A DNA stretch of 36,416 bases from Candidatus Poribacteria bacterium (GTDB lineage Bacteria; Abyssobacteria; SURF-5). The position numbers were made by a program, and so were the translations under genes. Position 1 is the first letter of the stretch. Each line of letters opens with the position of its first letter. Of the stretch, positions 29,537 to 35,752 are shown in pieces. A model generated the notes under the pieces. It searched no databases and had not been told where the DNA came from. It was given only the letters and a program-made list of their open reading frames with translations. The stretch lies in assembly GCA_016215705.1 (NCBI GenBank), contig JACRIR010000090.1, forward strand, positions 1 to 36,416. Reading direction: 5' to 3'.

Positions 29537-29579
29537 GCTTATACGGGGACACCATGCCGCATGGTGTCCCCGCATAAGC
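29537..29579. repeat. GGGGACACCATG palindrome, copy A
   Basis: 21-bp arms (29537-29557 and 29559-29579) with one mismatch around a single central base; core GGGGACACCATGC, outer part GCTTAT/ATAAGC. It lies 30 bp after polA. A decayed half-copy (TTATACGGGGATACGATGCG) sits just before it at about 29511-29530. No T-run follows. Confidence 0.85.
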
Positions 29580-33276: not shown

Positions 33277-33321
33277 CGCCTATTCGGGGACACCATGCGG
33301 CATGGTGTCCCCGAATAGGCG
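33277..33321. repeat. GGGGACACCATG palindrome, copy B
   Basis: Perfect 22-bp arms (33277-33298 and 33300-33321) around one base; core GGGGACACCATGC, outer part CGCCTATTC/GAATAGGCG. It lies about 50 bp past the end of the minus-strand rRNA methyltransferase gene and ahead of lptF. No T-run follows. Confidence 0.9.
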
Positions 33322-34615: not shown

Positions 34616-34660
34616 CCTTAATTCGGGGACACCATGCGACATGGTGTCCCCGAATTAAGG
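34616..34660. repeat. GGGGACACCATG palindrome, copy C
   Basis: Perfect 21-bp arms (34616-34636 and 34640-34660) with a CGA loop; core GGGGACACCATG, outer part CCTTAATTC/GAATTAAGG. It begins 15 bp after the stop codon of the minus-strand C-GCAxxG-C-C gene, so it would form a hairpin at that message's 3' end. Confidence 0.9.
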
Positions 34661-34674
34661 GTTTGCAGGTCTCG

Positions 34675-35655
34675 CTATCTCGCCAGTTCCGCCGCTTTAG
34701 TCGCCGTTTCCTTCGCCACCGAGATGCACTTCGAAATAACCTTCCGATCGAAAAACTCCTGCGAGCGGCGCTTGTCATGAAAATCAATCTTGATAATGTC
34801 GCGGCAGGCGCGCGAGCCGAATTTCTTCTCAAACCATTTCGATAGCTCGGCGCAGCGCAAGAGAGCGTCATTCGCCGGCGAAAGATCGAGTCGATTGAAT
34901 GCCTTTTTTCCCTGTATCAGCGTCAGAAGGATACGAGCCAACACGCGAAAGGCGCCTGTCTGGCTGGTATCGCCTCCCTGTGCGGTCCCGATGGCCATGC
35001 ATCCGCCTATTAGCGCCGCGCACGTCAGTCCGGAGTAACCGATGCCGCCGTTGAGCGGCATCAGCATGTTGAGCGACAGCGTGGGCGGCATGCCGAGTTC
35101 TTCCGATACAAGCGTAGAGACTGAGTGCGCGCAATTGAAGTTATTGTCGGCGAATGCCCTGTTGAGAGTCAGATAGAATTCGTCGACCTCATGGTGCGGC
35201 TGCTCGATGATGTCGCACATGATGGCAGTCGCCTTTGAGGCAAGCTTTACACACGCGCGCGACTTCGAGATGATATACCTGCGCAGTTGGGCGTCATCGT
35301 CGAAATTCGTGCCGGTGATCTCCTTGCAGAGAGCGCCGCACGATTCCTTCTTGAACCTGCGAACATATTCGTCCGCGCGCATGCAGCCACGAGCGATTAT
35401 CGTCGCTTGATCCTCTTCGGCTCGCGCGCTTGCAAGACCGAGCGACAGCGCCCCGCTGACGAGTATGCCGCATGCTGCTCCCTGATGCCCGATGCCTCCC
35501 GCAAGTCCGGCGACCGACAGCAACTTCTTTGTATCTCCCAGACCTAGGAGATCCTGCATATTGAGCAGGGTTGCCTGCGCTCAATGGCCCATCTGCAGCA
35601 TGCGCGATGCCGCTTTCTTGGCCGCTATATTCTTGTCGATGTAACCTCTAACCAT
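34675..35655 (-). CDS. two-domain C-GCAxxG-C-C redox protein, probable selenoprotein (Sec at codon 25)
   Basis: A 326-residue frame if the TGA at 35583-35581 is read as selenocysteine. ATG 35655 has GGGGGG 5 nt upstream; codons 1-24 form a Lys/Ala-rich helix ending QMGH, then U25, then AQATLLNMQDLLGLGD and AGGIGHQGAACGILVSGALSLG. The protein is two homologous domains. Domain 2 has FNCAHS with C175 followed 37 residues later by C212; domain 1 has U25 followed 37 residues later by C62, so the TGA stands where the repeat has Cys. Later Cys pairs (C110/C135 and C284/C310) also correspond. A SECIS-like hairpin follows the TGA. A start at ATG 35559, which avoids the TGA, has no Shine-Dalgarno and cuts off the first conserved residue. 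The family is thought to be redox-active with an unknown substrate, and Sec-containing members are known. The alternative is a nonsense mutation. Confidence 0.8.
35533..35552 (-). promoter_or_regulatory. bacterial SECIS-like stem-loop after the in-frame TGA
   Basis: In the minus-strand mRNA, AUCUCC (35552-35547) pairs perfectly with GGAGAU (35538-35533). A further U-G pair gives a seven-pair stem and a six-base apical loop AGGUCU with G as its second base. That G is 37 nt after the UGA, at the outer limit of the usual 16-37 nt window for bacterial SECIS elements recognised by SelB. A second small hairpin (GCAGG-CAAC-CCUGC) follows the UGA directly. Confidence 0.6.
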
Positions 35656-35723: not shown

Positions 35724-35752
35724 ATTGTATGCTTCACCTGACAAATGTTCAA
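35724..35752 (-). promoter_or_regulatory. promoter of the C-GCAxxG-C-C gene
   Basis: On the minus strand, TTGAAC (35752-35747), 17 nt, TACAAT (35729-35724), with a start near 35717. This gives a leader of about 60 nt before ATG 35655 and fits the longer, Sec-containing reading of the gene. Confidence 0.55.

Follow-up and report, generated by a model that had tools for sequence, protein, structure and literature searches.

An in-frame UGA codon very probably encodes selenocysteine in a tandem C-GCAxxG-C-C protein of Candidatus Abyssobacteria

In the window analysed here (the whole 36,416-nucleotide stretch of DNA, from a 5.47 Mb Ca. Abyssobacteria genome), the UGA at codon 25 of a minus-strand gene for a two-domain C-GCAxxG-C-C protein very probably encodes selenocysteine (Sec). 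The original prediction of a hidden selenoprotein, with an in-frame TGA as its first active-site residue, is borne out at the level of sequence by the Sec decoding machinery of the genome, the conservation of the TGA, the alternation of Cys and Sec in its alignment column and a downstream SECIS hairpin; we infer selenium incorporation, a redox role, a relay between the domains and a partner. The frame of 326 codons runs from ATG 35655 to the stop TAG at 34675-34677, and its sole interruption is the TGA at 35583-35581. Standard ORF calling starts instead at ATG 35559 and yields 294 amino acids without the first active-site residue, and because the protein is truncated and its Sec removed in this way, ordinary annotation misses the selenoprotein. 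The features of the locus are as follows.

34675..35655, minus strand: predicted gene for the two-domain selenoprotein, 326 aa including Sec25 (read-through translation, two PF09719 matches, orthologues that retain the TGA, purifying selection to either side of it)
35581..35583, minus strand: in-frame TGA, predicted Sec25 (TGA in the same column of G001 and G002; a Cys codon in Cys homologues)
35557..35559, minus strand: ATG chosen by standard gene calling (truncated 294-aa frame), directly 5' of the SECIS stem
35533..35552, minus strand: putative SECIS hairpin of 8 bp and -8.8 kcal/mol, with its apical loop 36 nt 3' of the UGA
35724..35752, minus strand: promoter-like TTGAAC-17-TACAAT from a consensus scan only (9/12 matches, about 70 nt 5' of the start codon)
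35200..35586, minus strand: domain 1, residues 24-152, with Sec25, Cys62, Cys110 and Cys135 (TIGR01909/NF045669 stretch 24-152; conserved columns)
34687..35139, minus strand: domain 2, residues 173-323, with Cys175, Cys212, Cys284 and Cys310 (PF09719 stretch; genome match 34687-35139)

The comparison set comprised three Abyssobacteria genomes (the source genome, G001 and G002), and searches at the order, class and phylum levels gave the same three. A related-locus search returned no relative with the single protein as query and G001 only with the alignment as query. Syntenic orthologues are present in G001 and G002 (60% and 54% identity, respectively), both with TGA in the same column and with all eight other checked Cys columns kept. 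Since this TGA has been retained in three genera at 54-60% protein identity, its in-frame position is not due to chance. Among the three orthologues, pN/pS is 0.37-0.59 upstream of the TGA and 0.39-0.48 downstream of the hairpin, so that both sides of the TGA are coding and constrained. In a family alignment of 28 rows (27 relatives), the Sec column contains Cys or TGA and no other codon, and the invariant Cys columns are this one, C62 and C110. Random sense codons or other stops at this position had been named beforehand as the mark of a pseudogene, and the alignment thus failed to refute the original reading. A one-domain C_GCAxxG_C_C paralogue likewise has a TGA at the corresponding site in each of the three genomes:

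L012, 1486-1938: predicted one-domain paralogue selenoprotein, with TGA
L013, 1471-1923: the same, with TGA
L014, 1468-1920: the same, with TGA

Among the three genomes, G001 alone has an additional PF09719 gene, which is devoid of an internal TGA (L118, G001:C1:70628-70894).

These comparisons bear on two ways in which the TGA could be something other than a Sec codon. It could reflect a pseudogene or a sequencing error in which a Cys codon was turned into a nonsense codon, and TGA is indeed one base from both TGC and TGT; however, the same TGA in three genera, a frame that is intact and constrained on both sides of it and the equivalent TGA of the paralogue in 3/3 genomes make this explanation extremely improbable. 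An altered genetic code, with TGA read as another amino acid, is hardly credible at all: it has the in-frame TGA in its favor and nothing beyond, whereas TGA serves as the stop codon of the G001 and G002 orthologues, a tRNA-Sec with the anticodon TCA is present and the column is Cys elsewhere.

The machinery for Sec decoding is present in the source genome, where a search for selA, selB, selC and selD, proposed as a check on the original prediction, found all four. The matches were 580 bits for selA, 371.5 bits for selB and 391 bits for selD, while the tRNA-Sec gene (selC) scored 68 bits, over the cut-off, and was called tRNA-SeC with anticodon tca by ARAGORN. A second tRNA-Sec match (C42) was rejected, as ARAGORN identified it as tRNA-Leu. 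In all three Abyssobacteria genomes, selD (L026, L027 and L028) itself has TGA at the active-site Cys (SGG-U-ACK) and is predicted to be an independent selenoprotein. Within the window, a weak selD-profile match (1842-2555; 104 bits, below the cut-off) lies inside a 360-aa ORF (1716-2798), which probably encodes a related ATP-binding enzyme.

A further alternative is that the gene starts at ATG 35559 and that the TGA merely ends an unrelated upstream frame. Standard ORF calling gives exactly this start, and the corresponding Met33 is conserved in 3/3 orthologues. Such a start is nevertheless very unlikely, considering that residues 1-24 show conservation as well as purifying selection across three genera, that the shorter frame drops the first Cys/Sec, which is kept in all relatives, and that inspection of the sequence ahead of ATG 35559 found no ribosome-binding site, in agreement with what had been claimed for this frame. 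The accompanying claim that the longer frame has a Shine-Dalgarno sequence and a promoter was upheld in part: the promoter-like site is present, but the Shine-Dalgarno sequence is weak in the source genome, where the site before ATG 35655 is only a G-rich stretch (GGGGGAAC). In the G001 orthologue, the ribosome-binding site is clearer (GGGAGGAAGAAGAATG). The gene adjoins those for PolA, Rho, LptG, LptF and an RlmI-like methyltransferase and its genomic position is conserved across the three Abyssobacteria genomes; these neighbors are housekeeping genes, which offer no functional hint and indicate no cofactor or partner. An Rfam scan of the window returned two tRNAs and nothing else. The palindrome TTCGGGGACACCAT-N5-ATGGTGTCCCCGAA occurs at window positions 29542-29574, 33283-33315 and 34622-34654, all intergenic, with the 14-base arm exact at two of the three places and none expected by chance, and looks like a REP-type dispersed repeat.

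Downstream of the TGA, the hairpin AUCUCCUA-GGUC-UGGGAGAU, with its 4-nt loop GGUC, falls within the published bSECIS limits, which are a loop of 3-9 nt, a stem of 4-16 bp, G in the first two loop positions, a distance of 16-37 nt from the UGA and an energy of at most -7.5 kcal/mol (PMC13188914). The energy limit is reached by chance at 4.9% of TGA sites in the window, and the hairpin of the 326-codon gene alone is therefore weak evidence. The bare hairpins of the orthologues, at -6.1 (G001) and -7.0 kcal/mol (G002), both miss the -7.5 limit, and they keep the loop core GGUCU and most of the pairs in the same place. In the orthologue comparisons, dS over the 17 codons after the TGA was 0.56, 0.61 and 1.17, versus 1.79, 2.26 and 3.10 elsewhere, and identical codons made up 6/12 of the hairpin stretch versus 26/124 elsewhere (Fisher p = 0.034). 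The retention of the loop and pairs and the low synonymous divergence thus lend the predicted SECIS of this gene modest support. Folding of 91 nt around the TGA gave no signal at such a scale (z = -1.1), the informative unit being the local hairpin rather than the 91-nt fold. The hairpin of the one-domain paralogue, CUC[C/U]U-GGC-A[G/A]GAG, differs between genomes by a compensatory replacement of a C-G pair with U-A.

The original prediction held that reading through the TGA restores a complete two-domain C-GCAxxG-C-C protein, and PF09719 (C_GCAxxG_C_C) indeed matches the read-through protein in two stretches (E 3.9e-30, 104.8 bits versus a cut-off of 27). The claimed symmetry of the two halves proved exact in the translation: U25 and C62, like C175 and C212, are 37 residues apart, and U25 and C175 are followed by A-Q and A-H, respectively. 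Each domain has four Cys, of which the first may be Sec, and all eight positions (U25, C62, C110 and C135; C175, C212, C284 and C310) are kept in 3/3 orthologues. The existence of Sec-containing family members, on which the original prediction drew, is documented both by TIGR01909, named "C-GCAxxG-C-C family (seleno)protein", and by reviews that list such members as forms 1 and 2 (PMC9312934; PMC13188914), with one Sec per protein in both forms (PMC13188914). As Sec-containing C-GCAxxG-C-C proteins are already catalogued, the locus is a further, well-supported member of a known selenoprotein family. Literature searches (open-licence papers) found no description of the tandem Sec/Cys form.

Relatives of the same two-domain form were found in a second phylum, that of G298, in which 132 genomes were searched, first using the orthologue profile and next using a match that it had yielded. 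These searches identified 15 two-domain genes holding both active sites (L084-L097 and L105, with L097 cut at a contig end) and, in addition, a fragment (L106) with the domain-1 site. Domain 1 has TGA in ten genes (L084, L088-L094, L105 and L106) and Cys in six (L085, L086, L087, L095, L096 and L097). Every one of the 15 genes that extend into domain 2 has Cys there, as does L058 from another phylum; this was read from the motif SC[AST] (TC in L058), the column being shifted in the MAFFT alignment. The hairpin GUYRAG-AGUU-CUYRAC, or a G-U variant of it, is present in eight Sec genes of this phylum, with 48/48 cells paired and two pairs changed on both sides, i.e., compensatory. Across the ten Sec genes the best hairpin ranged from -5.6 to -8.3 kcal/mol, compared with 0 to -3.0 for the six Cys genes (Mann-Whitney p = 0.0006, which is only a guide because the genes are related). 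In this phylum the predicted SECIS hairpin is thus confined to Sec genes and absent from Cys genes. A tree requires four switches between Sec and Cys, and well-supported branches force two of these. A Sec relative (L084) and a Cys relative (L087) are 64% identical. Counted from the second Met, the Sec protein L088 starts with MNRRRFLMLSAAGAAS (within the first 35 residues of the oriented frame), and because this start resembles a Tat export signal, its product may work outside the cytoplasm.

These relatives also bear on the proposal that Sec in domain 1 and Cys in domain 2 form an internal natural comparison. The arrangement itself holds; the two domains, however, are diverged paralogues and do not provide a clean isogenic comparison, and the better natural comparison is that between second-phylum relatives that differ in Sec or Cys at the domain-1 site.

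The AlphaFold2 model of the 326-aa protein is all-helical (pLDDT 92.5, pTM 0.92), with U25, C110, C175 and C284 starting helices and C62 and C212 placed directly before one. Structure comparison gave a single clear match, over domain 1, to the split-Soret cytochrome c PDB 1h21 (Z 10.2, next match 2.8; residues 2-156, 142 residues aligned, rmsd 3.5). Querying solved structures by sequence with the three orthologues produced no useful match. A Z of about 10 is not decisive by itself for a helical model, but the sequence agrees with it, as GGISDWGTICGA of 1h21 aligns with the C62 motif and GGI..G..CGA (GGI-x6-CGA) is common to both proteins. It is domain 1 only that has the split-Soret fold in common, and the 326-aa translation contains no CxxCH motif for a c-type haem part, which places the protein outside the split-Soret cytochromes proper.

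Because of this fold, the four Cys/Sec residues of each domain could either form a thiol/selenol relay or bind an iron centre. Sec most often acts as a reactive selenol and is less common as a metal ligand. For this reason we prefer a selenol/thiol pair, and selenol-relay chemistry has a somewhat better than even chance; a cytoplasmic thiol/selenol redox protein is the most likely product. The main alternative for the chemistry, in which Sec25 of the selenoprotein coordinates an iron or iron-sulfur centre rather than acting as a catalytic selenol, is possible but on the whole doubtful. In its favor, the 1h21 entry carries the title "A novel iron centre...", its GGISDWGTICGA aligns with the C62 motif, and a set of four Cys/Sec in each domain would be appropriate for metal binding; against it, 1h21 also has haems, which the Abyssobacteria protein is without.

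In the reading that we favor, SelB and tRNA-Sec very probably decode UGA 25 as Sec under the direction of the hairpin, the apical loop of which is 36 nt downstream, to give a 326-residue tandem C_GCAxxG_C_C protein with two all-helical domains and four Cys/Sec in each, mostly at or near helix N-termini. In the selenol relay, Sec25 of domain 1 would be the reactive residue and would be resolved by Cys62, and the all-Cys domain 2 could pass electrons to or from Sec25, or keep only the fold. Tandem C_GCAxxG_C_C proteins could represent a distinct redox architecture, with selenium in domain 1 only and swappable for Cys over evolution, domain 2 staying Cys and the halves having different jobs, e.g., catalysis and electron relay; this is a tentative proposal, a little short of an even chance.

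In summary, the locus contributes a predicted selenoprotein, with its Sec encoded by UGA, to a candidate phylum of the deep subsurface, and the paper describing the Abyssobacteria lineage makes no mention of selenium proteins. The tandem family offers natural Sec/Cys pairs at one site beside an all-Cys sister domain and, with SECIS elements predicted in Sec genes only, could be useful for asking why an uncharacterised redox family keeps selenium.

Among known systems, the closest is the C-GCAxxG-C-C (seleno)protein of TIGR01909/PF09719, which has the same domain and Cys pattern, with Sec for Cys in some members; the read-through protein passes TIGR01909 with 51.8 bits (cut-off 47.4), but that NCBIfam model is one-domain, whereas the Abyssobacteria protein has tandem domains with Sec in the first only. 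NCBIfam holds no model for the tandem form, and the 326-aa protein and its relatives pass TIGR01909 alone. The highest NCBIfam score of the protein is to the related single domain of the DVU_1555 family (NF045669), at 63.6 bits against a cut-off of 103. It also has a related domain in common with the HUGP/GUXX-star fusion selenoprotein (NF045501), a 236-position fusion with another part, whose cut-off of 325 bits is far above the 59.9 bits obtained. The split-Soret cytochrome c 1h21 resembles domain 1 in fold and motif but is a haem protein, while the Abyssobacteria protein is a tandem of the domain, with Sec. The second-phylum relatives resemble it in having two domains in tandem, the first with Sec or Cys at its active site and the second with Cys; they differ in that only a very long branch (3.1 plus 1.9 changes per column) joins the two groups, and the tandem arrangement may therefore have arisen twice, separately in Abyssobacteria and in the second phylum.
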